NCBI GenBank assembly: GCA_027604185.1 | Contig: JADGKB010000166.1 | Span: 1-22,352 of the forward strand | Reading direction: 5' to 3' | DNA length: 22,352 nucleotides | From: Boothiomyces macroporosus | Taxonomy: Eukaryota > Chytridiomycota > Chytridiomycetes > Rhizophydiales > Terramycetaceae | Shown here: positions 1,040 to 21,497 of the stretch, piece after piece | Numbering within the stretch: position 1 is the stretch's first letter | How the letters are laid out: every line of letters starts with the position of its first letter | Made by a program: the position numbers and the translations under genes | Notes under the pieces: model-generated | Told to the model about the DNA's origin: nothing | Seen by the model: the letters and a program-made list of their open reading frames with translations, nothing else | The model's database searches: none

Positions 1040-2501
1040 ATGTCCAAAGTATCCGAAGACACCCTACATGAAAATATTCAACTAGTACAAGACTCTGAAG
1101 TAAAAGGATGGTACTCTTACGCCTTTGCTTCGGAAGGATACTCTACCCTTCTCTCTACGTTTTACCCTTTAATCCTACAACAATTATATTCTGAACAAGG
1201 AAGGGATAAGAGTAATCATGACTTGCCATGTACTACTTCTTGCGATGTGTATTTCTTTGGATGGATGGATACAACTACCTTGGTGTACTATTCAACTACA
1301 ACTAGCGTACTACTAATGCTGATTATTTATATTCTATTAGGGCCAATAGGCGATTACTCTTTTTATAGAAAGAAACTCTTGTTTCTATTTGGTACTCTAA
1401 ACTGCCTTTTTGGATTGCTATTCTTGTTGATATACAACAGCAAGTATTACTATTATGCAACCGCATTATTTATCCTGGGCAATGTTTCGTTTGGTGGATC
1501 ATTTGTATTTTATTACTCTTATATACCAATATTATCTAGATACCACCCATCAACTATTAAAGACCCGGATACTAGAGAAGAATTCATGAACAATCTGTCT
1601 ACGTTTGGATTCCTTTATGGATACGTTGGTGGAGTAATTGTTTTGATTATTTCAATCATTTTAATTTCTGTTTGCTACAAATTCGGGTTTGAAGGTGTTT
1701 ATCCAATGCAAATATGTGTGGGGTTTTCCTGTCTGTGGCAGTTGATTGTAATGTACAGTTACACATTTCCCAATTTAAAAGAACGAAAAGGACCAGAATT
1801 ACCGAAAAGACCAATCCTAAATTCATTGCTGTCGTTGAAAGACACTTTAAAGAAAACTAGAAAATTAAAAGAATTGTTCAAGTTCTTGATTGTATGGTTC
1901 ATGGCTTCAGATGGTGCTTCAACTATATCTACTGTAGCAATACTGTTCTTTCAAACTGAACTTGGAGTATCTCAAATTGGACTTGTCGTTGTCGCAATCA
2001 TTTCACCATTCGCTGCTATATCTGGAAACTACTTTTTCAATCTGCTGAAAATCAAGACTAAATGGACAATCAAAAAGATTTTGATTATTCAGTTGATAAT
2101 GATTAGTATTCTACCTATTTGGGGAATGATTGGATTCTTTACACCAAAAAACACTTTTGGATTACAGTCACAGTGGGAAATTTATCCGTTATCTGTTTAT
2201 TTTGGATTCGTGTTTGGTGCTGCACAGTCATCGTGCAGAGTAATGTTTTCTGAATTGATTCCGCAAGGTCATGAATCCGAATTCTTTGGTCTATATGGTA
2301 ATTATTATTAATGTAGAATTGACTGATAAAGGATCCGCTTGGATTGGGCCACTTGTTGCTGGGTACATTGCTAACAATGCTAATAAGCGGTTCACATTTA
2401 TATATCTCTTTGGATGTTTCCTCGTCGCCCTTGGAGTATTCCTTTTGGTGGATACAGAGAAAGGCAAAAGAGATGCTGAAGATTACGTAGCGCAAATATA
2501 A
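1040..2501 (+). CDS. ATG22: Atg22-family vacuolar membrane transporter (spliced)
   Basis: Exons 1040-2297 and 2317-2501 encode 480 residues. Atg22 proteins are major-facilitator-like permeases of the fungal vacuole that export amino acids released by autophagic breakdown. Seen here: an N-terminal EVKGWYSYAFASE, the usual Atg22 opening; many hydrophobic helices separated by charged loops; LSTFGFLYGYVGGVI, matching the conserved GYxGG helix; and near the end EFFGLY-ELTDKGSAWIGP, which only forms when the 19-nt intron is removed. The frame extends upstream of 1040, but ATG 1040 is the first ATG and sits at the expected distance from the conserved start. Without splicing the frame ends at a TAA inside the intron and loses the last helices. 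Assigned by family motifs; transport activity is inferred. Confidence 0.9.
2298..2316 (+). other. 19-nt intron in ATG22
   Basis: Sequence GTAATTATTATTAATGTAG, phase 1. Removal joins the codons for FGLY to ELTDKG, restoring the conserved Atg22 motif. The TAA of the branch-like ATTAAT is in frame if the intron is retained. Confidence 0.9.
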
Positions 2502-2561
2502 CGACTTGAATTTATAGTGCACTTTACTTTTTTGGACTCAGTCATCTTTTAACTCGTTGTC

Positions 2562-2653
2562 GAGTCCTCTTTTAGCCAGCTACAGAGTCCTCTATTAGCT
2601 AGCAGCTGAGTCCTCTATTAGCCAGCTACAGAGTCCTCTATTAGCTAGCAGCT
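2562..2653. repeat. 23-bp tandem repeat, four copies in two alternating types
   Basis: Copies start at 2562, 2585, 2608 and 2631. All share GAGTCCTCT and TTAGC; copies 1 and 3 end AGCTACA while copies 2 and 4 end AGCAGCT, so the true repeating block is about 46 bp. A degenerate extra copy can be seen at 2539-2561. The array lies between the ATG22 stop and the next gene, both on the + strand, so it may be in a terminator, promoter or untranslated region. Confidence 0.85.
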
Positions 2654-2757
2654 GAATTATCCTTGTAACTCATTAAAAACTCTATCAGTGAGATTGACAT
2701 CAAACTTTTTTGTCAGTTTCTCGTATTTGATTGGTTGGCAGATCCAAATTTGATTGG

Positions 2758-3261: not shown

Positions 3262-3324
3262 AAAGTGTATTTTTGAAAGCTGTCAAATATTTATTTCTTT
3301 GCCAGTCCAAGATATTTTCGTCCC

Positions 3325-3633
3325 TCAATCCGGCATTTGTCTTGTCTTCATGGTATTCTTTTCGAAACTATTTTGCCTTTGGTGATTTTCGGTCCAGTAA
3401 TCAAAATACTGATAAACAGCGGATGAAACTGTCTGGATAGGCAGCAACATCCAAGACCCACTTTACCCAAATTGGCGCGTCAGTTTGTTCAATAATATAC
3501 GTACAATACCATTCAGGTGTGGATAGAGAGTAGGTAGTTGAAGCCAAAAATGCTGGTACGATAAATAACCAAAGCTATCATTTCGATAAAGTTCCGTCCG
3601 ATGACGTTTTCCATTTGGGATAAAATTGTTCAT
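3325..3633 (-). pseudogene. Probable gene relic with an in-frame stop
   Basis: One leftward frame runs from an ATG at 3633-3631 to TGA at 3327-3325, interrupted once by TAA at 3465-3463. Both halves look protein-like: the first includes FGYLSYQHFWLQLPTLYPHL, the second SSAVYQYFDYWTENHQRQNS. The frame is also open upstream, from 3672. I found no GT-AG segment of suitable length that would remove the stop and keep the frame. A second leftward frame (3574-3401) is also open, so the true structure is unclear. It may be a decayed gene or an unrecognised spliced one. I do not know the family. Confidence 0.3.
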
Positions 3634-3673
3634 ACGGAAGTCAGTTGGATGACGAATAAGGATATCAAACAAT

Positions 3674-6600
3674 TTATTGCGTCTTTTGCTTTTTAAATGC
3701 CGGCTCTGGGCTGCTCTTTTTAAAACAGTTCATTATATAATTTTCTGCCTCGTCTAGTGTGCCATTAAGTTTGCGTATTCTAGTAGATAATTCTTCAACG
3801 GCAACGCGATTTGAAGACACCAGTCCTTCAATTGAACTAAAGTCTCGTTTCTTGCTTGTTTGTTCTGGTGTCACTTTGTATATTTCAGTTAATATGTTGT
3901 ATTTAGTTGGGGTATCGGTAATTTCCAATCTGACTTCAGAAGGACTTTTGGGCTCAGAACCTAAACAAATTGAAGCAGTTTCTTCATCCGAAGAGAACGA
4001 ATTACTTGATGGTAGTTTTGCAATCAATTTTTTAGGTGCTGTATTTCGTGATTGTGTATGAATCTTTTTTGGAGAATTGGTATCGCTTTGGAAATCCATG
4101 TCAATTGATGCTGTTTCACTTTCTGAGATGGTTTCATCCATTCTCTCATTACAGCTTATCAGGTTGTCTTGACTGATTAGTTTGTCATTTTCGAGTTGCG
4201 AGATATCGTTTTCATGTAGGGTATCCGCTGATTCAGCAGTCGGTGAAGGAGCAAGGTCTTTGCACTTGGTATTTGTAGTTTCATGGTTCAGAACATCCAT
4301 TTTTGAGCACTCTTCGTTTTGGTTTCCATCGGTTAAATCATTACTTTCGGTTTCATCAACTATAGTCTTGCCACTAGATACGATTTGATCTTCATCGCTT
4401 TCTTGAGACTCTGCGGGTGGGGTAAGTGATTCAATGTTTTTATCATTAGGCTGATACACTGTTTGATCCTCTTTACTAAAGCTTCCACCATTCGAATCAA
4501 CTACAACTCGTTCTTGGGCCGAATACTCTTTGGGATACTTTTGCACTTCACCGACTGTAGTTCCTGTTTCACTTTGAGGAATATCTAATTTCGAACCAAC
4601 TTGGGCATCAATCTCTATTTGTGGGTTAGTTGGTAAAGCAGGAGCACATTTTAAATTTGGTTCCAAATTTTGATTTTCCTCACAATCTACTGCAGAAATT
4701 TCTTTGTCTTGAATTACTGGTGGCAGCACATCGTTTGTGTTTACTGCTTCAATGTTTTTCTTTTCGTCACCATCAGTAAAGTCAATACTTTCACACTCTT
4801 CATTTACAGTCTTTCCCGTGGATACTCTTTGTTCATCTTCACTTTGATACGTGCAATCACTTTCCAGAGTATAAACGGCAACATCCATTTCAGTTTCAGT
4901 GTGTAAGATCTGGTTTAGGCGATTGGTTGATGAGGCATTGAAAGTCGTTGCCACATCTTTACCACTCGAAAGATTGCACTCTTCGGCTCGAGTATCTTCA
5001 GCCAAATCAACGCTTTCAAAATCATCATCCGACGGTATTCCACTGAATACAATTGGTGCATCTTCATTATCATCCGAGTCAACATCGGAAGCTACTTCTA
5101 GTGGATCAATATCCATACCACTAGCACCATTGTCAATCTGGTGGTCAACTGGTAATCCATTAGTTTGGCAGTTTGAAACCACAGGTTCACCGATTGAAAG
5201 AGTCTTTGGTAAATGGGTTTCAGCTCGTTTTCCTACTGTAAACTGCACATTTCCAGATTCTCCATTCAATGCATCCTCAGTTATTTCAACCTGTGTATCT
5301 CCTTCCATTTCCAGACTGTCTTTTTCATGAATATCCACTTTAGGATCTTCCCCAGTTGCACTTTTTGGTTTGGGTTTGATTCGTGAATTTGGTTCCAAAG
5401 GAAGGGCGACGTTGCACTGCTCTTTATTTCCGTCTCTTTGATCATCTATTGGTTCATTCGCTACAGTGGCAGCTTGAGAGAAAACAAATTCCTCCGCATT
5501 GGAATAGTTAAGATCCACAAATTCTTCCCATTCAGATTCAATATTATTGACGGTTTTGCTAAACAAATTAGGACCATTTCCTAACGCCGAGGATCCAAAA
5601 AATTCTTCCAGAGGGTCCAGATCCAGCATTCGAGGCTTTTCAATTTGCATTAAATAATCATCAAATATTGTCTGACTTTGCTCCAATGGACCAAGTCCCT
5701 GATCTTTATATCTATCACTGTTTTCTATGTTTGGTGGAGCTGTCAATGAAGACTCGTTTACATTCAACTTTTCTTGAGCGTTTTGTGATCTGCGTGTGAA
5801 ATGCTTGGGATTCTTTATCTTTGCGAATCTGTTTTTACGTCTGCTTAAAAGTGGGTTCAAACTGTTTTCGATTTTTAGAAGGAAGGATTTCAAGGTGCTT
5901 GTAATTTGCTTGACCACCATATTGGAAATTAATTTGGCAGTTGTTTGTGCATCCCCTTTATAAAAGATCGTAGGAGCAGCTCTAGCTCTATGACCAACTT
6001 TGGACTTTGGAGTAAATTTTGGGGTTACTTTTGGTTTTGAATTACACTCATTTGCTTTTGGACCGATTTTTTGTTTGGAATTGGAATCACTTGGGTTGGG
6101 AAGAGTATCTGTAGTAATATTTTCCGTTTGGGGTTTGCTTCTGTCCAGCTCTTCAGTATGGAGTTCTTGCTCGTGCTTGCTTTTCTTTGAGATGTGGAGG
6201 AAAACTTCTGTGCAATAATTACATTGGTATAATCGACCTTGGACTGAAAACAGCTTTCGTGGAAGAAAATCATCAACGTATTGCAACATTCCTTGACTGT
6301 CATTTTCATTTCTACCACTGGATTGTGCATTTTGCAGCCGGTTGTCCCAATACTTTTCCAATTCATCTTCGAGATAGTTATATTGACATGAATGCAAATG
6401 ACTTTCCAGGTTGATACTCTTTACTTCCTCCAAGCACTGTACACATATAACGGAAGAATTTGGATCGTTTGGAAATACCAGAAATGCGGTATCTGAAAAC
6501 TTTGTCAATATCATTTTCAAATGAACAAGTAGTCTGTGGTATTCCAAGACAATTGCAGATGAGCATGCATCACCACAGTCGTCACAGCAGTTTTGATTAG

Positions 6601-8704
6601 AATGTGTGGGGCTTGAAACAGTAGAACTTCTTCCAGAAGTGCTCCTTCTAGAACTCCTGCGTAAGTGGTAATCTCCTGACGTGCTTTCCGATTGGGTGCT
6701 GCTCCCTGTGAACGATCTCCTTCGATTGGGTGTAATTTGATTTCGATCGATTTCAGAAAAGGTTGGTGAGCAAACATAATCAGAATCAATTTCCATTTCA
6801 CGATTTTTACCCCGTTTCAACATATTTCGCTGTTTACGCTGTACGCTAGGAGTGGTAGTGTCACTCCAGCATAAGTCTGAATGATCGTTAGGGAAATCCA
6901 TACTAACATCAAAATCAGCATCAAAGTTTGTTGGTTCAACTGCTGGAGACTTGCCCTTCACTTTTGAGGAAGATTTGGGCTTCTTGCTAGTTGTAAATTG
7001 CTTCTTTGGAGACTTTTCAGACATGGTTTCGCTAACAGCCGAATTCTGTACTTGATCTTCACCCAGAGAAACATTTTGTTTAACCCACTGCATAAGTGCA
7101 ATCTTTGCTTGCTCTTTGTTGGAATCTTGCGATTTGGACATTGGACTCTTTGAAGATCGCCTTTTACTACTCTTTTTGCTGGAAGACTTTTTCGATTTCT
7201 GTGGAGCGGGTGTTGAATTAGTGTCTGAAGATGGAGAATTTACAGTGTTTTTCCGAATAGGTCTATCCAGAGGAGTTTGGGAATTCCGTTCTCGACTTTC
7301 CTTGCTTGGCACTATTGTACATTTTGGGATATGGCATTTCAACTTTGAACAGTCCGGAAACAGTTTACCACATCTTATGCAATCAAAATATTCCAAATTC
7401 TTTTGCCGTGAAAATGTTTCTACAGTTACTACAAGAAATACCTTCATTGAAAAAGCTAAATATATATTCTCCCCGATGAATTTGAGCATTATGTCGCTTT
7501 AAAGTTGCTTTGTCATTGAACAGGATATCACAGCTCAGACAATTGAATTGAATCTTTGGATAAGGGCAGATGTTCATATGGCTTTGCAGCAAGCATTCGT
7601 CATTTTCAAAATTGGTGCAGCAACGGGGGCATCGGTAGTCTTCTCCACTAGCAATATGGATTTTTTCTAGATTAATGACGAATACCTCCATCGGGATAAA
7701 AGAATTCGGAAATAAACCGTCTAGATTTCCGAAGACTTTCGGGTGCATCAGAGAAAAGTGTGGTGCTTGAAGCTGGAGTCTTTATACCCATAGAACGCTT
7801 TTCAGGAGAAGTAGAACCCGTTCCATAAGGTGTAGTTTTTGAGCCGGGTAGAGTCTTTACCCCGCGACCGGGAGTTTTCTGTGGATATTTCATAGATTTG
7901 GCAGGAGTCTTGAAGCTTTGAGATGCTCTAGTAGCTTCCGACGGTGTGCTTGACACTGGTAGTTTTTTAATTCCATGCTTAGGTATACTAGAAGGCGATT
8001 TCGACTTTGCAGGTTTGTCATTCACCTCGCTGAAAATTTCAGACCTAATATCCACATCACCAATGTCGGATTTCTCGAGAAAATCAACCACATCCTGGAG
8101 ACTAAAGTCATCACCATTTTGATTGGTATCGGCAGTTGGGCTGTTTGATTGACAATCAACATCCAAAGATTTGTTGACCGCCGTACTAGAATTAACTTCT
8201 CGGGAGATATCAGCAGTTTGAATCGGACTACTGAATTCTTTCTCATAAATTGCTCTGTTGGAATCCAATACTTCTTCGAGTGACTCCTGTAGAAACATTG
8301 ACATTTCAACATCGCTAAAACAACTGGATACGTGCTGCGAGAATTCCAACTTTGTAAAGTAGATCTCCTGACATTTTTGGCATTGTGTAGCCTGGTCATG
8401 ATGGAATTGCGCTGCATGCTGTTTTAGATCAGCCCTAGTTCGCTTTGATTCTTCACAGTAAAAGCATTGAAAAGTAGAGCAGCTTCGTGCATGCGCTTTA
8501 AGCTGTAGTGGCGATTCAAAGTCGTTCAAACATCGAGGGCATTGCAGCGGGTATGGAGGTTGGATTGAGAAAGAGTCTGGATTAGTTCATCTTACCTCCG
8601 TCATTGAATTTGATACTGAACCGGTTATAATGTACTCTGCGTTTATGGTTGTTGAATTCAGATAGCAAGAGAAAGGTTTCGCTACACTGATTGCACTCGT
8701 GCAT
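3674..8704 (-). CDS. Large multi-zinc-finger protein, founder of a local paralogous family
   Basis: Four exons (8704-8596, 8576-7686, 7666-7442, 7419-3674) encode 1656 residues. The product carries paired fingers. Module 1: C2H2 (C4, C7, H20, H25), a strand-like FSIKFNDG, then C2HC (C49, C52, H65, C69). Further C2H2 and C2HC fingers follow (from C74). Module 2 has FFYPDG-EKIHI before CPRC (346-349). Module 3 is CLSC...H...H, then FFNE-E and CIRC (422-425). Module 4 lies near residues 686-753, and a last C2H2 begins near 808. Between them are Ser/Lys-rich basic stretches, and residues 840-1560 are long, acidic and probably disordered. The C-terminus is a short coiled coil (LSTRIRKLNGTLDEAENYIM). 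Nuclear nucleic-acid binding is inferred from the fingers. All three introns are phase 1 at equivalent module positions. I do not recognise the family. Confidence 0.85.
7420..7441 (-). other. 22-nt intron 3 of the large zinc-finger gene
   Basis: Reading leftward it starts GTATTTCTTG and ends AGTAACTGTAG, phase 1. It joins the FFNE segment of module 3 to ETFSRQKN and the CIRC finger. A 13-nt alternative ending at an earlier TAG keeps the same frame but lacks a branch-like motif, so 22 nt is preferred. Confidence 0.75.
7667..7685 (-). other. 19-nt intron 2 of the large zinc-finger gene
   Basis: Sequence on the coding strand GTATTCGTCATTAATCTAG, phase 1. Removal joins FFYPDG to EKIHIASGEDYRCPRC, rebuilding module 2. 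Retention gives an in-frame TAA from the ATTAAT. Confidence 0.88.
8577..8595 (-). other. 19-nt intron 1 of the large zinc-finger gene
   Basis: Sequence on the coding strand GTAAGATGAACTAATCCAG, phase 1. It joins the first C2H2 finger and FSIKFNDG to DSFSIQPPYPLQCPRC. Retention gives an in-frame TAA. Confidence 0.88.
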
Positions 8705-9324
8705 GGTGATTGAAAAAAAGCAACAACAAAATACATTACTAATCTTGTAGCCCTAGCCCTTAGAAGGATAGAATATCATTACACGCGAAGATGGATTGTA
8801 CGGCAAAGTTTACCACGGGAATAGAGTGATTCATTGTTTTGAATTCCAAGATCATGTTTAACCCGAGCTTTGTTCTCTTTCAATGTGTATTATCCAAACT
8901 CTGAGAATTTGGTGAATCATCTGAGCCAATGACTGAAGATGCTTGACCGAATGGCTGTAACTGGAGTGATTGACGGTAGTTGCCACCTTCGGTACAATTT
9001 AATCTGTCGATTAAACGAATCTGCTAGAGTTTGTACTGCGTATGAACGTACTCTTCCGTTGCTTTGATTCACTTGGGAATCAGTTGCACACATGCTGCTG
9101 GTAGTCAATATAAACCAATTCCACATTGAACGACCGTGTAGTACATTGTGCAACATGGCGAATTGAATAATCTAAACTATTTGGACTGCATTATTCAATA
9201 CCAGACTCTAGCGACACATTATTCAACACTGGACTCTATCATTGACAATACAATCAATAAACCAACATTGCAGAGAACAGTAACAAAATTTGAGAGAATA
9301 ATAAAGAAACAAAACCAAATACTT
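8705..9324. other. Unresolved 620-bp gap between two leftward genes
   Basis: No gene is called here with confidence. Several frames are open and look protein-like, but none gives a clean structure. Leftward, ATG 9156-9154 starts a 79-codon frame (to 8917). A second leftward frame, entered after a TAG at about 9040, runs through an in-frame TGA near 8894 to an end near 8764. On the + strand a frame from ATG 8951 is open except for one TGA. This mix suggests a decayed gene, or one with introns that I cannot place. An imperfect 28-bp repeat lies at 9189-9244. Confidence 0.4.
9189..9244. repeat. Imperfect 28-bp direct repeat, two copies
   Basis: Copies start at 9189 and 9217 with CATTATTCAA and share GACTCTA further on; 19 of the first 22 bases match. 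It is non-coding and lies just beyond the 3' end of the Zn2Cys6 regulator gene. Confidence 0.6.
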
Positions 9325-10949
9325 TTATTTAATTTCAAGCTTATTTAACATTTCAACATGAAAGGCAGTGGGCTTACTAAGCGGTGAAAACCCATTAGCC
9401 CTAAACTCGCCATAAGCCAATACTGCTTGGTACAACTCCATTTCCTCCAATTCCAGTATCAACTTGTAGTACAACTCTGTCCTTTGAAATACTTTGCCAT
9501 GTAGTGAAAGTAGCTCTACGTGTTTTTGATAAGCTTGTTTGATTTCTAGTGTCGACATGGGCAGCTTTATACAGCATTGGAGTAAAAATGCGCATACAAA
9601 TAACAGGTAGATTATGTATGCGTGCAAATGTTCAAATTGCTGATTGTACGTTTTAATCAACTCTAGTACATAAATGTTTGCCATACAAGATTGAAGGGCT
9701 TCTTTAAAATACAAAGAGTTTTCTATTTTCTTTCCTTTAATGATATTCTTCATGATACTCGGTATGATTAACTCCACCCTGGCATTATTGTACATTATGT
9801 AGACAGATAGTACCATCCAAGTGAGCTGTGGCTCTTTAACATTTTGGCTTATAAGCATTCTACCGTGATAATGAATGATATCTATGGCATTATTATACCA
9901 CTCTAATAGAGACGAATTCAAAGATCCAGCAATATATCTAATATTTTCTGTTTCATTGAGTAGCTCCAAGTGAACATAATTCAGAATATTATGGACTATT
10001 TTGTGCAAAATGATTCTATATGCCTGAAAGTCTTGATTAGGTATACATGGGATATACCATTCGCTGCTAGACATGATTTCTATACCATAGTAATCCGATG
10101 GAGAGCCAGCTTCAAAGTAAAAGTTTCCAGGCAAGAATATCTGATTATCACTGGATGATATGGCTGAAAACTTTTTCGGATTAATAGTGTACAGATTATA
10201 CAGCAACCACCATGTTCTTCTCATATTCTCCCTTTCATAATCAAAAGAGGATAGTTTCGCAAGTCCTGCTTCCGTGTTCATACCCAAATGCTTTGCAAAA
10301 GCCAAGCCCATATCTGCATAAAGGTAAGCTTCCTTTCCATCCAGCCCTAATTTAATTCCATTTTTACGTAGATGAGTGAACGCTAACTGAGCCAGAGTCA
10401 ATACTGCCAAATGGCTATTTTCGTTGATAAAGTTAAAAGAACCGGCTTTTTCCAAATACGCATGCGCCATTTCTATTCGATTGTTTAGTCCTTTAGGAAT
10501 AAGCTGATCAGGGAGATACAGAGCCGCAGTAGCGTATAAACTAAACCGTAGTGGCCAAAATTGCTTTGCGGATTCGATAAAGTATTCTCTGGATACATAA
10601 GAGAATATCGAAGGTAGTTTTTGAAACCGCAAGTCAATCAGATAATCATGGTTTGTACAAAAGAGATAGTATTCCAAATCATTTGATAACTGGTATCGCT
10701 CCACAGGAGGTTCTTTGGTTCGGTGTTCCCAGGTATGTTTAAACGGCATAATCAACAGCATCTCCAAATGTCTTATTCTACTCTCCATTCTCTTGTATTT
10801 CTTTATTACTGTTTCTTGCTGAGAGTATCTGCACTTTATATTCTTTTCCAAACACAGGGAGCAAGGTAAACGACGGTCACACTTTCTTTTCTAAGTTAAA
10901 GATCGATTACCCTTTTGATACAGTAATCACAGGTATAAACTAGCTTCAT
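9325..10949 (-). CDS. Zn2Cys6 (Gal4-type) fungal transcription factor (spliced)
   Basis: Exons 10949-10911 and 10890-9325 encode 534 residues. Splicing builds a perfect Zn2Cys6 DNA-binding cluster: cysteines 7, 10, 17, 23, 26 and 33, spacing C-x2-C-x6-C-x5-C-x2-C-x6-C, with basic IKRKRK between C10 and C17. These clusters bind two zinc ions and usually recognise CGG triplets. A short coiled-coil linker follows (about 40-60), then a helical regulatory region with the fungal middle-homology signature (YERENMRRTWWLLYNLY, around 231-247). The start ATG lies six codons before the first cysteine, normal for the family. Without the intron the first two cysteines are lost. The target pathway cannot be told. 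A CGG-N8-CCG element lies upstream, so self-regulation is conceivable. Confidence 0.9.
10891..10910 (-). other. 20-nt intron in the Zn2Cys6 regulator gene
   Basis: Sequence on the coding strand GTAATCGATCTTTAACTTAG, phase 0. It splits the zinc cluster between CDYCIKR and KRKCDRR; removal gives the exact six-residue spacing. Retention gives an in-frame TAA. Confidence 0.92.
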
Positions 10950-11423: not shown

Positions 11424-12002
11424 ATGCGAGTTTTACAACCGAAACCAGTGAATATACCAACCAAGAAGGCCAAAGGGAAAAAGGGGAATAATCCAACAAA
11501 GAAACCAATCAAGACAGCCATAAAAGAACCAATTAAAACGAAAGCAATTGACTCTGACTTGCGAAATTCTGACTACAAAGACTCTGACTTGCAAAATTCT
11601 GACTGCAAAGACTCTGACTTGCAAAATTCTGATTACAAAGACTCTGACTTGCAAAACTCTGATTACAAAGACCCCAATTACAAAGACTCTGAATTCAATG
11701 ACCCATGGGGAATTCTTCAAGCTACCAGAGAAACAAAGACAGTATCAACTCCACAGAGTAAAGAGAAATCAGACAACGGTATCAGCACAGAAAAGGAATT
11801 CAAAGATGGTAGTGATACAGAGGAAATCAAAGACAAGTCTGTTAGTAGTCAGGAAATAAATGACAGCCCTAGAACGCAACAATCGAACGAGACTCGTAGT
11901 AGTAGTCCGGAATACATGGACAACTCTGTGTTCAATATAATGAAAAGAGTCCAGGAAAATGTTGAACAGATACAACAAAAGCATAAAAAAAGGAGAAAAT
12001 AA
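11424..12002 (+). CDS. Basic, low-complexity protein with a 10-residue tandem repeat
   Basis: A 192-residue intronless protein that I do not recognise. It starts with a Lys/Pro-rich basic region (KKAKGKKGNNPTKKPIK). Four copies of a 10-residue repeat (DSDLQNSDYK type, residues 43-82) and two half copies follow. Then come a short DPWGILQATRE motif, a serine- and acid-rich stretch, and a C-terminal helix with heptad spacing (FNIMKRVQENVEQIQQKH) ending in KKRRK, a likely nuclear or nucleolar signal. The composition resembles small ribosome-biogenesis or chromatin proteins, but that is a guess. PEX6 begins only 49 bp after the stop. Confidence 0.65.
   Translation: MRVLQPKPVNIPTKKAKGKKGNNPTKKPIKTAIKEPIKTKAIDSDLRNSDYKDSDLQNSDCKDSDLQNSDYKDSDLQNSDYKDPNYKDSEFNDPWGILQATRETKTVSTPQSKEKSDNGISTEKEFKDGSDTEEIKDKSVSSQEINDSPRTQQSNETRSSSPEYMDNSVFNIMKRVQENVEQIQQKHKKRRK
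11550..11699 (+). repeat. Coding tandem repeat: four 30-bp units plus two 15-bp half units
   Basis: Units start at 11550, 11580, 11610 and 11640; half units at 11670 and 11685. Each 30-bp unit is itself two related 15-bp halves (GACTCTGACTTGCAA and AATTCTGACTACAAA types). Unit length is a multiple of three, so copy number can change without breaking the frame. Confidence 0.9.
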
Positions 12003-12051: not shown

Positions 12052-14252
12052 ATGCAATCACAAATACCAATTGAATCCATTTACACATTCAACCACAACG
12101 ATTACTTGATTTCATATCCAATCCGAAATGGTGCAATCACGGAAAACACAAATATAATATTACTTGAACCTGAAATTGAAACAAAACATTCAATTGAACC
12201 TGCGTATAAATCCCAATCATTAAATCATTTATTGTTGGGATCAAAGGAAGCTTACGAACTGAAATTGTTTGAAAATGATTACGTAATGCTGCTACCAATC
12301 AAACTTGTAGTTCAAGTCAAAATAATTGATTTTGGGATTTACTTGGATTACAATTACAAATTGGATTCTTTTCTTTATAAAAAGGTCTTGCATGAATTCA
12401 AAGAATGCGAAAAGATTCTTGTTTATTCTTTAGCAAGAAACCCTGATTTACAAGAACTGTATAAAGAGATTTGTGGACAAGTTGTGTTTAATGGTGTAAT
12501 GATATTCACTGGAAATAATGGATACAAATTGAAAACAAAGACCCAGTCGTTAGTAACTAGAAATACTGTATTGGAATACAAAGGGATTTTGAAGCCAGTA
12601 AAGTATTTGGGGCTACAGGTTGGTTACTTGCAAGAACCAAAAAATGTTAATCTGATTTACAAAAAGGTAGGATTCATATTGAATTATTTCTATTAGAATT
12701 AATTCTATTTATATTGATTTTACTCTAGTACAACAGTTTTCTGCTTTTAAAAGATTCTATTCAAAAAACAGTGGAAAATTTGAAATCAATATTGCTTCCT
12801 AATCATTATATAGTGCTGGAGCATTTTGAAGCATTTCAAGAGTCTTGGAGCGGGTAATTATTTTTGACTATAGGAGTAAACTAGATGGAAAGTATCTCTT
12901 GGAAAAGGTGTTTGATGAAACACAAGCGCATGTAGTGTGCCATTTAGAAAGAATTGATTTGATTGAAAAAGAGTATTTGAGCCTGTTTGACGAAATCACT
13001 GAAACGGAAATTCCTAATCAAGAAAAAAGACAAGAAATTCTAAAGCAATTTATAGATCACGTGGATTATAAAAGGATTGCTGTTCAGACGGCAGGAATGA
13101 CTGAAAAGGAACTAAAGAAACTGGTTGAAAATGCAAAGATTGATTTAAAGAAAAATATTTTAACCAAACACAAAACTATTGTAGACAAACTGTTCCCAGA
13201 ACAACTGGACGATCCAATTGTAAAGCATTTAAAAACAAATGAAAAGTACAATGAATTCATTGAAACAGTCGAGCCTGTATTACAAACTAATGATTTAATC
13301 TCATCAGCAATCCAACTTAAGCAATCCAGTCAAACAGCAAAAATTCCAAATGTACAGTGGAAAGATGTTGGTGGTTTAGAACATGTGAAAAAAACAATTA
13401 TTGAAACCATAAAATTACCACTAGATAACCCACATTTCTTTGATGGGATGCAAAAAAGAAGTGGTATTCTGCTCTATGGACCACCTGGAACTGGTAAAAC
13501 ATTAATTGCGAAAGCAGTAGCTACTACCCTACAATTAAACTTTTTTTCTATCAAAGGACCACAGTTGTTGAATCAATACGTTGGTGAAAGTGAAAAGAAC
13601 GTTCGGATGGTGTTTGAGAGAGCTAGAGAAGCCAAGCCGTGCATCATATTCTTTGACGAATTGGATTCACTAGCACCAAAAAGAGGAGGTAGTGGTGATG
13701 GCGGTGGTGTAATGGACAGAATCGTATCTCAATTGTTAGCTGAGCTTGATGGGTGTGGGGGATCAGATGTATTTTGTATCGGTGCTACGAATAGACCAGA
13801 TTTACTTGATAGTGCATTACTAAGACCTGGTAGATTTGATAAACTGGTATACCTAGGACCAAGTACAGACAAAGTATCACTCCTTAGAGCGTGCATAAAC
13901 AAGTACATGTAATTAATGTAGATTCGATGTAGGCGATTTCGATATAGAATCATTCACCAGTAAAATCCCAGATGGATTCACTGGTGCAGATTACTACGCC
14001 TTATCTTCACGCGCATTCATGAACGCAATCAAGAGACGCATCAAAGTGATAGACCAAGAACGAGGTGACTTTTCACCTAAAAAGTACATGGAAAAAGTTG
14101 GAGATGAAGGAAAAGTTGTGGTTCACGAACAAGATTTTGCTGATGCACTTGTTGGGCTTGAGCCTAGTGTTGGTAGAGAAGAGATGAAGCGGTATGAGAG
14201 TATTCGCAGGCAGTTTGAGCCTGTCAAAGATAAAGGAAAGAAGCCAATGTAA
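12052..14252 (+). CDS. PEX6: Pex6-type peroxisomal AAA ATPase, shortened (spliced)
   Basis: Four exons (12052-12666, 12729-12853, 12874-13902, 13922-14252) encode 699 residues; Pex6 is usually near 1000. With Pex1 it forms the hexameric motor that pulls the receptor Pex5 out of the peroxisomal membrane. The D2 domain is intact: GPPGTGKT (449-456), [13 protein letters not shown] with D508/E509, the Pex6-typical [17 protein letters not shown], the ATNRPD and RPGRFDK arginine-finger region, then [19 protein letters not shown], which needs the third intron removed. The D1 domain is vestigial: Walker A is reduced to [14 protein letters not shown], the Walker B acidic pair is missing ([13 protein letters not shown]), and the following segment is deleted. 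The N-domain (exon 1) is short and divergent. Assignment to Pex6 rather than Pex1 or Cdc48 rests on the D2 motifs. Confidence 0.9.
12667..12728 (+). other. 62-nt intron 1 of PEX6
   Basis: Starts GTAGGATTC and ends TTTTACTCTAG, phase 0. It joins the N-domain exon (ending IYKK) to [15 protein letters not shown], the D1 remnant. It is three times the length of the other introns. The frame demands a length of 3n+2, which 62 satisfies; no shorter GTA...AG segment fits. Confidence 0.7.
12854..12873 (+). other. 20-nt intron 2 of PEX6
   Basis: Sequence GTAATTATTTTTGACTATAG, phase 2. It joins [10 protein letters not shown] to [13 protein letters not shown], giving a continuous D1 remnant. The TAA of GTAA is in frame if retained. 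Confidence 0.8.
13903..13921 (+). other. 19-nt intron 3 of PEX6
   Basis: Sequence GTACATGTAATTAATGTAG, phase 2. It joins RACINK to [11 protein letters not shown], giving the conserved KF of Pex6. A 13-nt GTAATTAATGTAG keeps the same frame but would add Y-I and leave almost no spacer. Confidence 0.85.
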
Positions 14253-14412: not shown

Positions 14413-16879
14413 ATGGCGAGTTGCGCAACGTGCTCATTCCCAATCCTGCACAAACCAGACTTGAATTGCTACGCATGCAAATACAACGTACTCTTTACTA
14501 ACTCAGATTGATATATGCGACGTTTGCGGTGCTCTAGCAAGAATGACCAACGATCAGCCAGTAGAACTGTTATCCACACCTATAAAGCTATGTACGGACT
14601 GTATCCATGAAAAACAAGACCGCAAGTTTAGTGTATGGATAAATTCAGTTTCTGGATTGAAAAAAGAGCGGATTGAAAAGATATTACGAAATCCTCATGT
14701 AGTTTCGGTTTACCAGCAAGAGTTGTATGAACAGATAAAAAGCAATTTTCAAGAAACCGAGTATGAAGAGTATAGCGGTAGTATTATCAAAGAGCTGCCC
14801 TTCCGGTACGCTGACGATGAACCAATGGACATTGATGAACCAGTAATACCGACAATCAGACCATCACCAGTTAAAAACAATACAGACACTTTAAACGAAA
14901 TGGTTCATGAAAAAAATGTATCCCCAAATAGCGAATTCCCTCTTGATATTGCACAAGAGTCACCTCAACTAGATTTGATACCAGATCAAAATAATGAAGG
15001 GGACGAAGATATGGATACATCTTCAGATGAATTTAAAGAAACTGTTGCTCCTATCGAAATTCCTAGCACCAAACCATCGCCGATATTTGAAAACCTTTCG
15101 CTATCTCCTGAAAGTACTAGTAAAATTGCTGAAGATGAAAGTGATTTGGTGGTTAAAAAGGTTACGGAAGCCACGAATCTTGTGCAGGATATAGATAACG
15201 ATGTCCAAGCACAAGACCAGGATGTTGTTGCGGTTACTAAAAATCAATTACTAGTTGAGGATAATGATGTTGCTGCAGTTGTTAGCAAGGAGCGTGCGCA
15301 AGTTGAATACAAGGATATTGTCGAGATCGCAGATGACGAAACTGCTCTCTTATGCAAAGAAGATGTAAAAAATGATACACCGTTTGAACTGAAAGCTTCC
15401 TCGGTTGATAAAACAAGTGCACGAGAGATGGAATCCAGAGTTTTAAAAGAAAACAAGCAGGGAGAAAAAGATATTTCTTTGCATAGCTCTGTTCAATCAT
15501 CAGTGGAGGCTAGTGATAAAGCAGCTGGCAAAACGTTGGAAAAGGCAATCGAACAGAAAACAGAAATGCAAGTATCTCTTGAAAAACAAGATAATCCTCA
15601 CTCCCCAAAACGACCTGTAGAAACAACACCAGTAAATGCACAAAAGAAATCAAAGGTAGAGCAGGCAGACAGTCCACCAGTTCCGGTTACTTTTGAAAAT
15701 GAATGTCAAGTAGAAATGGAGCTAGATGATGATTCAGACAACTCGCTCATAATTGAATTAGAAGAAACTACTAATCAAGTTCAGCCTCAGACAAATATCT
15801 CAAATGAAAAGTCTAGTGACAACCTGGAAAGCAAAAAGACTGCATTTGCTGAAAGTATTAATCAATCCAAAGGCACCGATTCCCCAACCAAAGCAAACAC
15901 ACTTGAAAGAGGAAAGCCAGCTCCTCTCACAACTATTACTGCTCCAGTAAGACCAAAGTCTTCGATTTTAGATGTAATCAACAAGAAAAAGGAATCCAAG
16001 GATATAATGTCTGTCCTTACATCCAAATCCAGCTATCCATCGATTGCACCAAAAGAATCTGAAAATGAAATTGAATTCATCAAATCTGTACCAATAACCC
16101 CAGAATCAAAAGATAAAAAAGATAAAAAAGATGAATTCAATACCAGCCAAGAGTTTATCCAAATAGATGTAGGCGAGGATGATTTGAGAAAAATAATCAA
16201 TCCAGCACGGAATGCTCAACGGTCTGCAACCGATTCTGTGAAAAGCTCTGTTGCCCCACCTCTAGATTCCGAACCAAAACAAAGCAGTGCAGTAAATGAA
16301 GCGAAAGTTGTAAACCAAAAAGCAAACTATGCTTTTACACCAAACAAACCCTCTCTTCATCCTCAAGCTAATACACCCACTATGACTGTTCAAACAGCGA
16401 ATGACAATACTCAATTAGTAAATACTGGCACACCCAATGCTCCAGTGCCAAATGTTACCCCTACAACTACTCCAAGAAACCCGGTGCCAGCTACGCCTGA
16501 ATTACATACACCAAAGACTCCATTAGTTGGTCCGAAACCTACTTCCAAACCTGTCATAAAGCCAGTGAAAAGCCTATTCCCAATGCTTACCCCAACAAAT
16601 ATTCCCAGAGAAAAGAATCATGGCATTTGCTACTACTGTCAGGAATACGATTACTTGAAGTACACCAACATTGTTGAAAATCCAAACTTTAAGCTCATCC
16701 CAATTTGTAAGACCTGCCACAAAAGTAAAGGCAAACAACCCGTACTTTGGTGGGTAAAGTCGCTCCAAGCACAGCAACAGCACTTTATCTGGAGTTTATT
16801 TAATATGCCAGAAAACCAACTTTTGAAAACAGAAGCACTGAATGAGGCAGCTCAGTTCGAAAACAATAAAGCCCAGTGA
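14413..16879 (+). CDS. Uncharacterised protein with cysteine clusters at both ends (spliced)
   Basis: Exons 14413-14487 and 14507-16879 encode 815 residues. The N-terminus has four CxxC pairs (C4/C7, C19/C22, C29/C32, C54/C57), enough for two zinc ions in a RING- or ribbon-like fold; the first two pairs are in exon 1. A helical region follows (about 60-110). Residues 120-690 are disordered, acidic and Ser/Thr/Pro-rich, with hydrophobic-acidic patches such as NSLIIELEE and FIQIDVGEDD that look like SUMO-interacting motifs. A C-terminal zinc ribbon (CYYC 733-736, CKTC 759-762) precedes LWWVKSLQAQQQHFIWSLF. I do not recognise the family; a nuclear or chromatin scaffold role is only inferred. The intron is well supported because it carries a perfect TACTAAC and places the two halves of the cysteine cluster in one frame. 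Confidence 0.8.
14488..14506 (+). other. 19-nt intron with perfect TACTAAC branch site
   Basis: Sequence GTACTCTTTACTAACTCAG, phase 0. It joins CYACKYN to IDICDVCGA. Retention reaches an in-frame TGA a few bases into exon 2. Confidence 0.9.
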
Positions 16880-16937: not shown

Positions 16938-18164
16938 ATGTTTAGATCGATCGTCGCAGAAACATATATAATATCGCAGTACCTTTCGCTGGTCGACTAC
17001 CACAACCTCCGCTTTGCCTCCATAGAAATCAACCTTTCATCCTACCCGCAATTATCGTGGCAAGCTTACGTACTGTCATCAACGATTTCACACCAAGATA
17101 TATCTGAATTTATGACTGTCTCATCGCTCTCAATAACAGACGAGAAATTCATGTACTTTGTTGATAAACGTCACATTCAGCAATTATCTAAATCGTTCAC
17201 TCCTCAAGTATCTTTTAAAACTGTACTTCGAGTATTACGAAACAATTTGTATGACATTCACTCTTTTCAGCCTGAAATTGTATTGGAGCTGTTGAAGCAT
17301 ATAGATCTGACTCGAATAAGTGTTTGCGAGATTGATCGTCTTTGGCATAGATCTATCGATACTTGTAGTGTAGAAATTGTCGAATTGATGCTGGAAAGAA
17401 ACTTGCTGCTGGATCTAGAGTATGGTATGTTTACTGCTTGTCAAGAAGGCTCGTACGAACTTGTCGATTTGCTAATTTCTTTTGGAGTAGATCCAAGCGT
17501 AAACGATTCTGAATCTTTGGTGATTGCATGCAGGTACGGATACGATAAGATTGTTCAGTTGCTGCTTGCTGATCCAAGAGTCAACCCAAGCGGCAAAAAC
17601 AATCAGGGATTAGTGTGGGCATGTAAAAATGGAAATACAAAAATAGTATGTGGATTGCTGCATTGTTATAACATGAATGCGACTATTGAACTAAAGAATG
17701 AATGCTTTCTTTTGGCGGTTGTCCGTGGGCATGATGATATCGTGGGGTTATTGATGGACGATGGGAGAATAGATCCGTATGTCCAGTCGAGTGCCCTGCT
17801 ACATGCCGCGAAATGGGGGCATTTGGCTGTTTTAGAACTGTTGGTACAGGCATACAAAGTAGATTTGATGCACTTTGGAAACTTGGCATTTACAGCAGCG
17901 TGTGCCAACGGCTATTACTTGGTAGTAGAGTATATGCTCGGAATACAAGGAATAGATCCAAATTTTGACGGCAGCAGACCATTGTATTTGGCTGCACAAA
18001 ATGGACACCTCAAAGTGGTCGAAATTCTTGCCAAAGATAAAAGGGTTGACGTCTCACAAAGTGTAATTCGAAGTGCAAAGAAGAATCGACACTTGGATAT
18101 CTACAAGATATTGACTAATAGAAGTAGTACATTCTTGTGCTGGTGGAATATGCTTGTTTTTTAA
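16938..18164 (+). CDS. F-box-like ankyrin-repeat protein
   Basis: A 408-residue intronless protein. Residues 1-40 (ETYIISQYLSLVDYHNLRFA) have an F-box-like helix pattern. Residues about 45-140 form a region shared with the small protein at 349-810 (TDEKFMYFVDKRHIQQLSK). From about 145 to 400 there are eight or nine ankyrin repeats, with recognisable cores such as LVIACRYGYDKIVQLLLADP, LLHAAKWGHLAVLELLVQA and LYLAAQNGHLKVVEILAKD. Ankyrin repeats bind protein partners; with an F-box this would suit a substrate receptor of an SCF ubiquitin ligase, which is inference. The gene starts 58 bp after the previous stop on the same strand and converges on the next gene. Confidence 0.88.
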   Translation: MFRSIVAETYIISQYLSLVDYHNLRFASIEINLSSYPQLSWQAYVLSSTISHQDISEFMTVSSLSITDEKFMYFVDKRHIQQLSKSFTPQVSFKTVLRVLRNNLYDIHSFQPEIVLELLKHIDLTRISVCEIDRLWHRSIDTCSVEIVELMLERNLLLDLEYGMFTACQEGSYELVDLLISFGVDPSVNDSESLVIACRYGYDKIVQLLLADPRVNPSGKNNQGLVWACKNGNTKIVCGLLHCYNMNATIELKNECFLLAVVRGHDDIVGLLMDDGRIDPYVQSSALLHAAKWGHLAVLELLVQAYKVDLMHFGNLAFTAACANGYYLVVEYMLGIQGIDPNFDGSRPLYLAAQNGHLKVVEILAKDKRVDVSQSVIRSAKKNRHLDIYKILTNRSSTFLCWWNMLVF

Positions 18165-18322: not shown

Positions 18323-19447
18323 TCATACAGTGTGTCTCCGATGCTTCCATTTGACTTTTGATTGCGAATTCAAAACTGAAAGTATGGTGTCTTCAACTTG
18401 ATCCAGCTGAGAATCCAAAATACTCAGTCTTTGGTGCATTCCTTGAATATTATCTTTAATTGCTATCGCAGGTGGTATTAATCCATTATCAGTTAGATAT
18501 TTCATGATATTTACTTCTACTTGATCTAAACATTTGTGTAGCAGTGGTATTTTGACACACATTGCTTTGATTTCCTGGTTAACAGCATCAACCAATTCAA
18601 AAGCAGCACTAGATTGATCTGTATTGAAAATATCTGTTTCAAGCAATCTGGAAATCTCCCCAGAATCTGAGAAATGCTCGAATATCTTTGTGTAGTGCTC
18701 TATTTCTTTGGCACTATGACAAGGCATGCTACTAGAATGGTGAATCCAGTTTAATGGGATATTCTTTATCGAAAACACAGTATTTTTATCACTATCTGGG
18801 TGTGCCGGTAATGTATTAGCCGGTTCAATATATTCTGGGTGATGATGCTGGATATGTTTTGAAAATCCCTCTAGCTGTTCACTTTGAAATATGCGTTTTG
18901 GGTGTTCCAAGTCCTCCGGTAAATTATTGGTATATTGTATATTTTCAAGGCCGTTGAAATATCTATTTACAATTCCATTATCATTTTGGTTTTCTCCAAG
19001 TTCACTTTGATCGAGCACTATTTCGGTGTCGAGATCTGTATTTTTCTGTGTTATGCTTTTGGAATTTGGATATTCCGTCTTACCAGAGTTACATGTATTC
19101 TCAAACTTGTCAGAGTCCAACTCTTCCATTTCATTTGCAATAGTGTTAAGTGTGTTTTCGTTCGAGTCTTGGTTTTCAGTCAAGTGCCCATCCACAACTT
19201 GCATAGGATCGGTATTCTCCATGTTGGCATCCATTGCACTATTATCCAGAGATTCATCAATCTCAATTCTGTTATCTGGTTTGCCCGCAGTTGATTCTGG
19301 TGTCTTTAGTTGAAGATATTGATCAAGCATCCTTTTGTCATTATCCAAGCTTATTGAATACTTTGGACGGTCAAGGCACTGGATTGAATGAGTGTAGAGT
19401 CCTGTTGGTGTATAAAAGTTTTCTCTGCATTTTCGACATTCAAACAT
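18323..19447 (-). CDS. Single-finger member of the local zinc-finger family
   Basis: A 374-residue intronless protein. It opens directly with a C2HC finger, CRKCRENFYTPTGLYTHSIQ followed by C (C-x2-C-x12-H-x3-C), then KYSISLDND, reminiscent of the FxIxFxDG segment of its relatives. The middle is acidic, Asn-rich and probably disordered, with HHH-rich and hydrophobic patches. The C-terminal 90 residues are helical with heptad spacing (LHKCLDQVEVNIMKYL; QRLSILDSQLDQVEDTIL). The last heptads resemble the C-terminus of the large protein at 3674-8704. It lies 104 bp from the next family member, on the same strand, and converges with the ankyrin gene. It probably oligomerises through the coiled coil; function unknown. 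Confidence 0.8.
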   Translation of the reverse strand: MFECRKCRENFYTPTGLYTHSIQCLDRPKYSISLDNDKRMLDQYLQLKTPESTAGKPDNRIEIDESLDNSAMDANMENTDPMQVVDGHLTENQDSNENTLNTIANEMEELDSDKFENTCNSGKTEYPNSKSITQKNTDLDTEIVLDQSELGENQNDNGIVNRYFNGLENIQYTNNLPEDLEHPKRIFQSEQLEGFSKHIQHHHPEYIEPANTLPAHPDSDKNTVFSIKNIPLNWIHHSSSMPCHSAKEIEHYTKIFEHFSDSGEISRLLETDIFNTDQSSAAFELVDAVNQEIKAMCVKIPLLHKCLDQVEVNIMKYLTDNGLIPPAIAIKDNIQGMHQRLSILDSQLDQVEDTILSVLNSQSKVKWKHRRHTV

Positions 19448-19551
19448 GAAAAAAAAAGTAAACTCTACAGTTGGTCAAAACTTGTTACTTGCGGTTAATT
19501 ATTTAGAGGTGTTAAATTTAAACCGGAAAGAGAGCTTCAGGGTTATATTAT

Positions 19552-21497
19552 TTAGTTATGAGGATAATAAGAAGAGTTGAGTTGAACACAAGTTCGGGCA
19601 TGACTCTGCAATAGTCGTCCCGTGTTGTAATGCTTTTTACATCTTGGACAGGCAAAAGTATCCTTCTTTTCTACTTTGAATGATTCTAAGTTAATGGCGG
19701 TTACCTCCATCGCTAAACTTGATTAGAAATACAGTGCGATGAACATTTTGGAAATGTGTATTCCTATCGTGTTCAGAAGCGAAAATTTCCTCGCATTGGG
19801 TGCAGTTGAATTTGAACGGGCCAAAGATATCTAAACCGGTCTTTAAGCATCGCTTGGTATGAAGGTGCAGCATCCTATACGATGTGGCCAAATGGCTACA
19901 ACGCGGGCACTTGAAAGGCTCCCCTCTGTTAATTTCAAAGCCGCCTTCATCTGGAAAGTTGAAATGGTATACTTGGGCATGAACATTCTTTTGATGCACA
20001 TATCTCTTTCCTCTCGTATCAAATATTTCATCACACTCGTTGCATGGAAAATATTTCATTCCATTCTGTCCAACTATAGGTGGTTTTGTAGGAATAGATG
20101 GATGTAAATACTGAAAATTGGGAGAATTTGGTGGAGGCTTTGGTGCATCTAATATATGTTTTGGAATCATTCCAATTAAACGTAGAGTATTCTGATTCGC
20201 TACACTAGTCGATATCGTTTGACTGCTGGACAGTGAATTTGTCTGAGCAGGTTTATCGTCATTTTGTGTGTTATTTTCCGATAGCTTGACCAAATCACCA
20301 GGCGGCGGGTCTCTGAATGTGACTTGTTGAGGTGTTTTACCATCAAGATTAGGTAGAGTGTGTTTTACAAATACAGTATTCCTTTCTTTTGAATCTTGGC
20401 TATATCCGGACAAAAAAGTATTTTTCAGTCCCGATATATCTTTTCCAGGTGAGTATCCTTCTGGTGTCGGTATAGAGCTGCCTTTGAGAGCAACTTGATC
20501 TTTATCAGAGACCAATTTTTCTAATATTGAAGGAGACATGGGATGCTGTAGAATCCGCACAGAATGTACCTCCAATTCCTGTTCAGGAGAATGCTCAACT
20601 GAATCTTCGCTTTGCAACTCTATAGAATCGTCCAAGTCAACAGTTCCAATGCTATTGGTATCTGCTGAATCCAAAAGAACTGTAGATGGCTCAGAAACAT
20701 CGTCGGAAGGACTGGAGGGTATTTCTGGAACAATTGGTGGTATTTCTATATCCTCTAATTTGTTTCTTTTTGGCAAAGAACATAATGCGCTTTCAATTAC
20801 TCTTTTCAAGTTTTCCCTTTTTCCTACATCAACGATTGTCTGTGGGGTCCTTTTCGTACTCACTTGACAATCGTGGGATATAAATTCCTGATAATTGAAC
20901 ATTATATTACAAGATGGACATGAGACTTTGGGTCTCGATATTTCCACATTATTTATAAAATCCCGAACTCCAATTGATCTGCTATCAGTCTGCGGGTTAA
21001 CCGGAATTTCTGGGGCAACTGGTAGATCTGGCGAACTGGCTACATATAGACCAGGATGACTGCTTTTCTTTTGTTGATTTGAATCGTTTTCCGTGATTAT
21101 TTCACTTTTTCCAGTAGATTTTATCGAATCCTCTTCCTCTTCATTCGCGCATACATGCCTCATATATTCCTTGAAATTGAATTTGTTACTGCATAAGGTA
21201 CATTCAAACAATTCCACTTTTGGTTCTACATTAATTCAATCTACCTTGTTTTTGATGATGCTGCCTCAGGATATGCATATTCCGGTTCGCTATACTGTTG
21301 AACTGCATACAACAGTACTGACACGAAAAATCCTTGGATTTACTGTCGTCGTTGCTGGTACCAGCTCCAATAATTTCAGAGGTGTTTGGTATCAGGGAAT
21401 CTCTGGTCATCAAAGAAATCCTTCCGCCTCCACTCTGCGCTGTGTATTTTGATTGATTTCTAATTGTCGACGTTTCTATAGAGTCTTTTCGTGTCAT
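19552..21497 (-). CDS. Multi-zinc-finger protein of the local family (spliced)
   Basis: Three exons (21497-21245, 21225-19705, 19685-19552) encode 635 residues. Fingers in order: C2H2 (C59, C62, H75, H80); two short fingers of type C-x2-C-x11-H-x-C (CTLCSNKFNFKEYMRHVC; CPSCNIMFNYQEFISHDC); a Ser/acid-rich disordered middle; then two complete tandem modules. The first is CNECDEIF..., YHFNFPDEGGFEI, CPRC; the second CTQCEEIF..., VFLIKFSDG-ESFKV, CPRCKKHYNTGRLLQSHART with a final C. The last finger exists only after splicing. The start ATG at 21497 is the first in a frame open for another 14 codons upstream; a further 5' exon is possible. Nucleic-acid binding in the nucleus is inferred from the fingers. 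Confidence 0.85.
19686..19704 (-). other. 19-nt intron 2 of the 635-residue zinc-finger gene
   Basis: Sequence on the coding strand GTAACCGCCATTAACTTAG, phase 1. It joins VFLIKFSDG to ESFKVEKKDTFACPRC, completing the last module. Retention gives an in-frame TAA. Confidence 0.9.
21226..21244 (-). other. 19-nt intron 1 of the 635-residue zinc-finger gene
   Basis: Sequence on the coding strand GTAGATTGAATTAATGTAG, phase 1. It joins the first C2H2 finger (ending HHQKQ) to EPKVELFECTLC. Retention gives an in-frame TAA. The last ten bases are identical to the ATG22 intron and to PEX6 intron 3. Confidence 0.88.

Follow-up and report, generated by a model that had tools for sequence, protein, structure and literature searches.

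Introns near the minimum length are known in ciliates, Rhizaria and nucleomorphs. Those of Stentor coeruleus measure 15–16 nucleotides (nt), with the branch A at base 10–11, and the published account of its splicing machinery gives Slu7 and Prp18 as undetected, the Gly motif of Cwc25 as missing and the N-terminus of Isy1 as not conserved (PMC9505925). Chlorarachniophyte nucleomorph introns are 18–21 nt long, 19 nt being the commonest length in Bigelowiella and Gymnochlora (PMC4035089, PMC10245619), and Mikrocytos mackini is described as having 16–17-nt introns (n=224) with a reduced spliceosome of 17–19 proteins (PMC10245619). For fungi and their relatives, the figures in print include a median length of 32 nt for the 13 introns studied in Encephalitozoon cuniculi (PMC2483917), a mean of 63 nt in Cryptococcus neoformans (PMC11913375, PMC8476143), for which one study bins introns of 20–40 nt (PMC11913375), and a median of 204 nt in Yarrowia lipolytica (PMC2483917). 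Here we analysed a 22,352-nt stretch of the Boothiomyces macroporosus assembly (contig JADGKB010000166.1, hereafter the window), in which ten segments of 19, 20 or 22 nt interrupt six genes. These segments are very probably U2-type spliceosomal introns that belong to a genome-wide class of 19–22-nt introns in the nuclear genome of a flagellated fungus. An initial annotation of the window had read them as spliceosomal introns, a reading that the sequence data support through an excess of the intron motif, a length-neutral gene finder run with decoys, a sense-strand bias, the domains restored by intron removal and the pairing with U1, U2 and U6.

The closest parallel is with Stentor, with which this fungus shares fixed intron lengths, a GTA donor, a fixed position of the branch A, the canonical sequences for branch binding in U2 and of ACAGAGA in U6 and, for one of its two groups of introns, a 5-nt tail past the branch A. 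It differs from the published description of Stentor in its intron lengths of 19–22 nt, in a branch A at bases 14–16 within a clear YTRAY motif, and in having Slu7, Prp18 and a Cwc25 that keeps its Gly plug. The length range and the narrow distribution are also those reported for chlorarachniophyte nucleomorphs; however, the latter are relic nuclei of endosymbionts of ~0.4 Mb, whereas the introns described here lie in a nuclear genome of 15.2 Mb. Similarly, M. mackini is reported to have uniform, very short introns of conserved sequence, but two strict patterns alone give ~2,900 matches above control in this fungus, and six of the six splicing proteins sought are present. The microsporidian E. 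cuniculi belongs to the wider fungal lineage and has a strong branch motif, as does this fungus, in which the 19–22-nt introns in contrast number in the thousands. C. neoformans likewise has intron-bearing genes with many short introns, but the accounts cited above describe no main class of 19–22 nt for it. Finally, Y. lipolytica shares a constant spacing between the branch site and the terminal AG and the lack of a 3′ polypyrimidine tract, but its introns are described as compact only at the 3′ end.

The initial annotation had stated that no comparable class was known from a fungal nuclear genome. This statement stands in so far as we found no report of a fungus with 19–22-nt introns as its main class in the open-licence literature searched, although this genome may already have an annotation elsewhere; it needs the qualification that fungal introns shorter than usual are in print for Cryptococcus and E. 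cuniculi. The genome-wide class is real and has good support from the sequence, as a fungal addition to a known kind of tiny intron.

The assembly comprises 15,203,306 bases in 216 contigs, of which the window is contig 166. Seven 19-nt introns, at 2298, 7667, 8577, 13903, 14488, 19686 and 21226, had been annotated as fitting the pattern GTA-N6-AYTAAY-N-YAG, and these coordinates proved to be exact. After shuffling of the window, the pattern occurred 0.03 times on average, and at least seven matches were reached in 0 of 100 shuffles. A scan of the whole genome with this consensus, as the annotation had proposed, returned 1282 matches (630 + 652) versus 34 (19 + 15) for the reversed pattern, and a strict pattern of 20 nt with an unchanged tail returned 1781 (875 + 906) versus 106 (50 + 56) for its control. 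Chance occurrence of the motif in the window is ruled out by these counts and by the shuffles. A looser pattern spanning 15–52 nt gave totals of 1277 versus 1015 for the control, which is no clear excess, and its informative feature is a pile-up at 19–22 nt: 71 of the first 100 matches listed have these lengths (30, 31, 4 and 6 at 19, 20, 21 and 22 nt, respectively). The annotated range of 19–22 nt, to which a few introns of 23 nt can be added, held, but 20 nt is at least as common as 19 nt genome-wide, and 19 nt can be rejected as the dominant class. By extrapolation from the unbiased sample described below, the genome would contain ~6,000 to 10,000 tiny introns. Their AT content is 0.70 (n=207).

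The spacing of the motif elements was tabulated over 279,080 bases that include loci fetched for matching something and are thus not a random sample; the 30 anchor matches of the 19-nt genome scan (L001–L030) were omitted, and identical contexts were counted once. Fixed spacing of YTRAY is seen in 209 local matches, and in 13 for the reversed motif. Where the tail measures 5–6 nt, the branch A is found at base 14, 15 or 16 in 125, 64 and 20 matches, respectively, versus 5, 1 and 7 in the control. The distribution has sharp edges on both sides, with 2 matches versus 4 in the control at base 13 and 6 versus 4 at base 17. Ten more matches (control, 0) combine a branch A at base 15 with a 4-nt tail and are likewise 19 nt long. 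The order of elements is (A)AG|GTA, T-rich bases 5–9, YTRAY, one or two bases, and YAG, so that the 3′ end mostly lies 5 or 6 bases past the branch A. The usual G at donor position +5 is rare (12%, versus 52% T). Two elements of the annotated pattern needed revision. The base ahead of YTAAY varies (39% A, 26% G), and YTRAY is the correct rendering of the branch motif; the distance of 5 nt between the branch A and the 3′ end holds for one group of introns, whereas it is 6 nt in the other and 4 nt in a few. Selection against introns of 21 nt, a multiple of three, was considered and set aside: the deficit (30 versus 43.5 expected with branch position and tail length taken as independent) is too weak and is confounded.

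Introns were also predicted with a codon-model gene finder, a hidden Markov model (HMM) that is open to every GT-AG intron and neutral as to length but favours GTA and YAG ends; the preference for these ends was added because the HMM misplaced boundaries when it had no donor preference. The unbiased sample of 122,352 bases consisted of 11 pieces: besides the window, it covered ten stretches of 10 kb taken from seven further contigs. Gene models scoring <15 (25 among the other loci) and overlapping lower-scoring models were dropped. With lengths of 10–300 nt allowed, 52 of the 90 introns called are 19–22 nt long (15, 29, 4 and 4 from the shortest to the longest), and none has a length of 10–18 or 23–28 nt. 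Six decoy pairs of intron ends placed 3 of 58, 2 of 73, 4 of 64, 1 of 64, 2 of 46 and 1 of 66 introns at 19–22 nt. No class of longer introns rises above background in these calls, as GT-AG introns of at least 29 nt number 38 versus 41–64 with the decoys; nevertheless, single longer introns, e.g. one of 46 nt in the Isy1 gene, look real. The 19–22-nt introns are thus the main class, as in tiny-intron genomes, with the other length-neutral calls at decoy level. When the HMM was made to favour the motif, 81 of 102 introns in the 75 genes of the unbiased sample were 19–23 nt long, as were 126 of the 152 introns called in the other, non-randomly chosen loci. Over the 94,305 nt of coding sequence predicted in the unbiased sample, the 81 introns amount to ~0.9 per kb. 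The motif also follows the direction of the genes: among its 86 matches in the unbiased sample, 55 are in sense orientation, 6 are antisense and 25 lie outside predicted genes, and the corresponding numbers for the reversed motif are 2, 2 and 1.

Removal of the ten segments from the six genes of the window (Table 1) opens their reading frames, which are not open otherwise, as had been annotated. Three of these introns had been given no coordinates, and we took them to be 7420–7441, 10891–10910 and 12854–12873. The annotated claim that every summed coding sequence is a multiple of three applies to five of the six genes, each with a single terminal stop; the sixth (19552–21497) is open for 635 codons up to its stop. 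Intron removal also restores protein family motifs, in agreement with the annotation. Thus, the Zn_clus domain is detected with 34.9 bits (cut-off, 21) in the spliced Zn2Cys6 gene, and no family is found in the downstream open reading frame 9325–10851 alone. For ATG22, the Pfam score is 380.5 bits for the spliced product versus 318.1 bits for exon 1 alone, read 11 bases into the intron. The PEX6-like product has a Pfam AAA match of 155.4 bits, and its top PDB scores are for Cdc48/p97 (E 7.6e-125, two stretches), ahead of Peroxisomal ATPase PEX6 with a single stretch (E 4.7e-101); PEX6 is kept here as the label given in the annotation. No Pfam family was found in the first 243 residues of the product of the gene with a Cys-rich N-terminus.

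The two zinc-finger genes, called A and B, provide an internal control. The zf-C2H2_4 family is found with 34.5 bits in the spliced N-terminus of the gene A product. A zinc-finger unit recurs in both genes, and its introns at 8577, 7667, 7420, 19686 and 21226 are all in phase 1, the first four at the identical place in the unit. One intronless copy of the unit is 29 residues long, as are the copies at 8577 and 19686 once spliced; that at 7420 comes to 30 residues. In both genes, paired zinc fingers recur and are linked by a conserved FSDG/E...CPRC linker. The open frame at 18323–19447 starts with a finger-like Cys/His pattern as judged by eye, with no search made.

The U2 branch-binding sequence and the spliceosomal proteins, whose inspection the annotation had suggested, look ordinary. 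There are two diverged U2 small nuclear RNA genes (L031 1501–1693 on contig C80, 142.2 bits; L032 1501–1691 on contig C178, 135.4 bits), and both contain the branch-binding GTAGTA. A U6 small nuclear RNA gene is present and has ACAGAGA. The U1 match starts with ATACTTACCTG, and the donor (A)AG|GTA pairs with the U1 5′ end ACTTACCTG. Six proteins were sought, Slu7, Prp18, SF1, U2AF65, Cwc25 and Isy1, and all are present. The loss of Slu7 and Prp18 that might be expected from a 5-nt tail is thereby rejected. A change in Cwc25 like that of Stentor was not seen either: the protein starts with MGGGDLNLKKSWHP, aligns to human CWC25 from residue 1 and keeps the Gly plug. The alignment of U2AF65 to its human counterpart (197 residues, E 1.2e-61) spans two of its three called introns, which are 19, 20 and 19 nt long, and that of Isy1 to human ISY1 runs through three tiny introns. 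The Pfam match of Isy1 starts at profile position 4. A PDB search left the first 33 residues of the protein out of the alignment with human ISY1, in a part of the gene model that depends on an uncertain 49-nt intron. This 49-nt segment (L059 1259–1307) apparently contains two consecutive tiny-intron 3′ ends and is possibly a nested or alternative intron. In the SF1 gene (L041), the zinc knuckle is split by a 21-nt intron, the removal of which yields GHxARxC, which we take to be the expected form of this motif. The intron has no in-frame stop, and gene finders would translate it as seven extra residues.

From the sequence class, its spacing, the restored proteins and the machinery present, we infer splicing itself, the order in which the factors bind and the cause of the length floor. 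U1 would pair with the (A)AG|GTA donor, the usual +5 G having been lost, and YTRAY, with its branch A at base 14, 15 or 16, would be bound by SF1 and then by U2. The intron may be recognized as a single unit in which the U1 footprint (~+1 to +6) adjoins the U2 branch helix (~bases 9–15). U6 would then displace U1, the branch A would attack the donor to form a lariat loop of ~14–16 nt, and the first YAG, usually 5–6 nt beyond the branch A, would be joined. The sharp lower edge of the distribution, with no excess of the branch A at base 13, would correspond to the room that this spliceosome needs, at which shrinkage halted.

We tentatively propose, short of calling it probable, that the spliceosome of this fungus is set to a spacing ruler. 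For U1 and U2, the donor and the branch site would form one rigid unit 13–15 nt apart, introns outside ~19–23 nt would be poorly spliced or absent, and Slu7, Prp18 and the Cwc25 plug would have been kept. It is possible instead, and again short of probable, that the tiny introns are real but that deletion bias and weak selection account for their length window, with no ruler and with longer introns spliced equally well. That introns shrink by deletion until they reach a functional threshold has been proposed for such genomes (PMC10245619), and this account fits the apparent longer introns of Isy1 (46 nt) and of the PEX6-like gene (62 nt). However, pure deletion bias predicts a floor and not such a ceiling, and the upper edge is sharp as well, with the branch A at base 17 near control level and calls of at least 29 nt no commoner than with decoys. 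The combination of a sharp floor and a sharp ceiling would therefore favour a spacing requirement over deletion bias alone.

Several observations weigh against the spacing requirement or against the intron assignment as a whole. The side-by-side fit of U1 and U2 is a matter of arithmetic rather than of structure, and base 14 is not a universal limit, since the branch A of Stentor sits at base 10 (PMC9505925). Restricted to lengths of up to 120 nt, the length-neutral HMM was exact for five of the ten window introns (2298, 7667, 8577, 12854 and 13903); it trimmed the 22-nt intron to 13 nt, made that at 21226 118 nt long and missed those at 10891, 14488 and 19686. One intron of 15 nt was called in the other loci. 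Longer introns were called in the Slu7, Cwc25 and Isy1 models (56, 31, 46 and 49 nt) and in the PEX6-like gene (62 nt), and they either form a thin tail or indicate that these models are partly wrong. The U1 score of 68.8 is just below the family cut-off of 69.5, U2AF65 is below its strict family cut-off (E 1.1e-67), and the 20-nt U2AF65 intron ends with AAG and not YAG.

The frame breaks are very unlikely to reflect assembly or sequencing errors or decaying genes instead of introns. The assembly does apparently contain some duplicated stretches, but a branch motif shared with fixed spacing by some 3,000 places is not what errors would produce, and neither is a location on the sense strand in 55 of the 61 cases that fall within genes. 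The spliced proteins, including core proteins of the spliceosome, align well to the human ones. Elimination of the segments from the DNA of a somatic nucleus, rather than from RNA, is more improbable still: ciliate internal eliminated sequences are similarly short, AT-rich and narrow in length, but the segments have GT and AG ends and a U2-type branch site matched by U1, U2 and U6 genes and splicing proteins, and two kinds of nuclei are not known from fungi.

The gene content of the loci points to a flagellated (zoosporic) fungus rather than a yeast or a member of Saccharomycotina, because the flagellar transport genes IFT57 (E 5.2e-121) and IFT140 (E 2.4e-43) are present. Dymeclin is found as well, and the flagellar genes are accompanied by those of Zn2Cys6, ATG22 and GH18 proteins.

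At 19–22 nt, these introns are close to the shortest known in any organism, and the machinery that would process them looks ordinary. The fungal case concerns a lineage near the best-studied spliceosomes, those of yeast. Yeast Prp18 and Slu7 are described as dispensable when the distance from the branch to the 3′ site is short (PMC10711555); their retention here despite a 5–6-nt tail makes duties beyond reaching distant 3′ sites testable. The sharp window of the branch A at bases 14–16 similarly sets a measurable limit to the proximity of U1 and U2. If the spacing ruler is real, intron miniaturization would be separable from the spliceosome changes of other tiny-intron lineages, and this fungus would be the first whose nuclear genome relies on such introns. 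In practice, the default minimum intron sizes of gene callers and read aligners would probably break most intron-bearing genes in this genome.

Table 1. Genes, introns and related segments of the window (positions are those of the whole stretch)
Feature	Position	Strand	Remarks
ATG22 (vacuolar effluxer)	1040..2501	+	One 19-nt intron; spliced coding sequence 1443 nt, one stop
19-nt intron GTAATTATTATTAATGTAG in ATG22	2298..2316	+	Pattern match; picked by length-neutral HMM
Zinc-finger gene A	3674..8704	-	Three tiny introns; spliced coding sequence 4971 nt, one stop
22-nt intron GTATTTCTTGTAGTAACTGTAG, phase 1, gene A	7420..7441	-	HMMs called first 13 nt only
19-nt intron, phase 1, gene A	7667..7685	-	Pattern match; length-neutral HMM
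19-nt intron, phase 1, zinc-finger linker of gene A	8577..8595	-	Pattern match; length-neutral HMM
Zn2Cys6 transcription factor gene	9325..10949	-	One 20-nt intron
20-nt intron GTAATCGATCTTTAACTTAG within Zn2Cys6 cluster	10891..10910	-	Not called by HMMs, which started the gene downstream
PEX6-like AAA ATPase gene	12052..14252	+	Two tiny introns and a 62-nt segment; spliced coding sequence 2100 nt
62-nt probable intron, PEX6-like gene	12667..12728	+	Frame requires removal; exception to tiny class
20-nt intron GTAATTATTTTTGACTATAG, PEX6-like gene	12854..12873	+	Picked by length-neutral HMM
19-nt intron, PEX6-like gene	13903..13921	+	Within stretch aligning to Cdc48 and PEX6; pattern match; length-neutral HMM
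Gene with Cys-rich N-terminus	14413..16879	+	One 19-nt intron; spliced 2448 nt, one stop
19-nt intron GTACTCTTTACTAACTCAG	14488..14506	+	Pattern match; missed by HMMs, which started the gene at 14543
Zinc-finger gene B	19552..21497	-	Two tiny introns
19-nt intron GTAACCGCCATTAACTTAG, phase 1, gene B	19686..19704	-	Pattern match; missed by length-neutral HMM
Intronless copy of zinc-finger unit	19898..19984	-	29 residues; internal splicing control
19-nt intron GTAGATTGAATTAATGTAG, phase 1, gene B	21226..21244	-	Pattern match; length-neutral HMM extended it to 118 nt, 3′ end unchanged

Identical matches were found at several pairs of places in the assembly: C49:3443–3682 and C100:5038–5277, C3:211575 and 233193, and C20:74242 and 119309. 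Contig C2 has identical matches at 279933 and 298150 and at 322529 and 340746, with equal spacing. This suggests that the assembly contains large duplicated blocks or haplotypes that were not collapsed. At the locus of one of the U2 genes, the reading frame L031 1955–3192 resembles a hAT-type transposase, no search having been made.

The window has a GC content of 37.8% and contains two tandem repeats, one with a 23/46-base unit directly downstream of ATG22 (2562–2655) and one with a 30-base unit (11550–11692) that lies in the open frame 11424–12002 and encodes a repeated D/S/N-rich peptide. An ankyrin-repeat protein is encoded at 16938–18164 by a single open frame.

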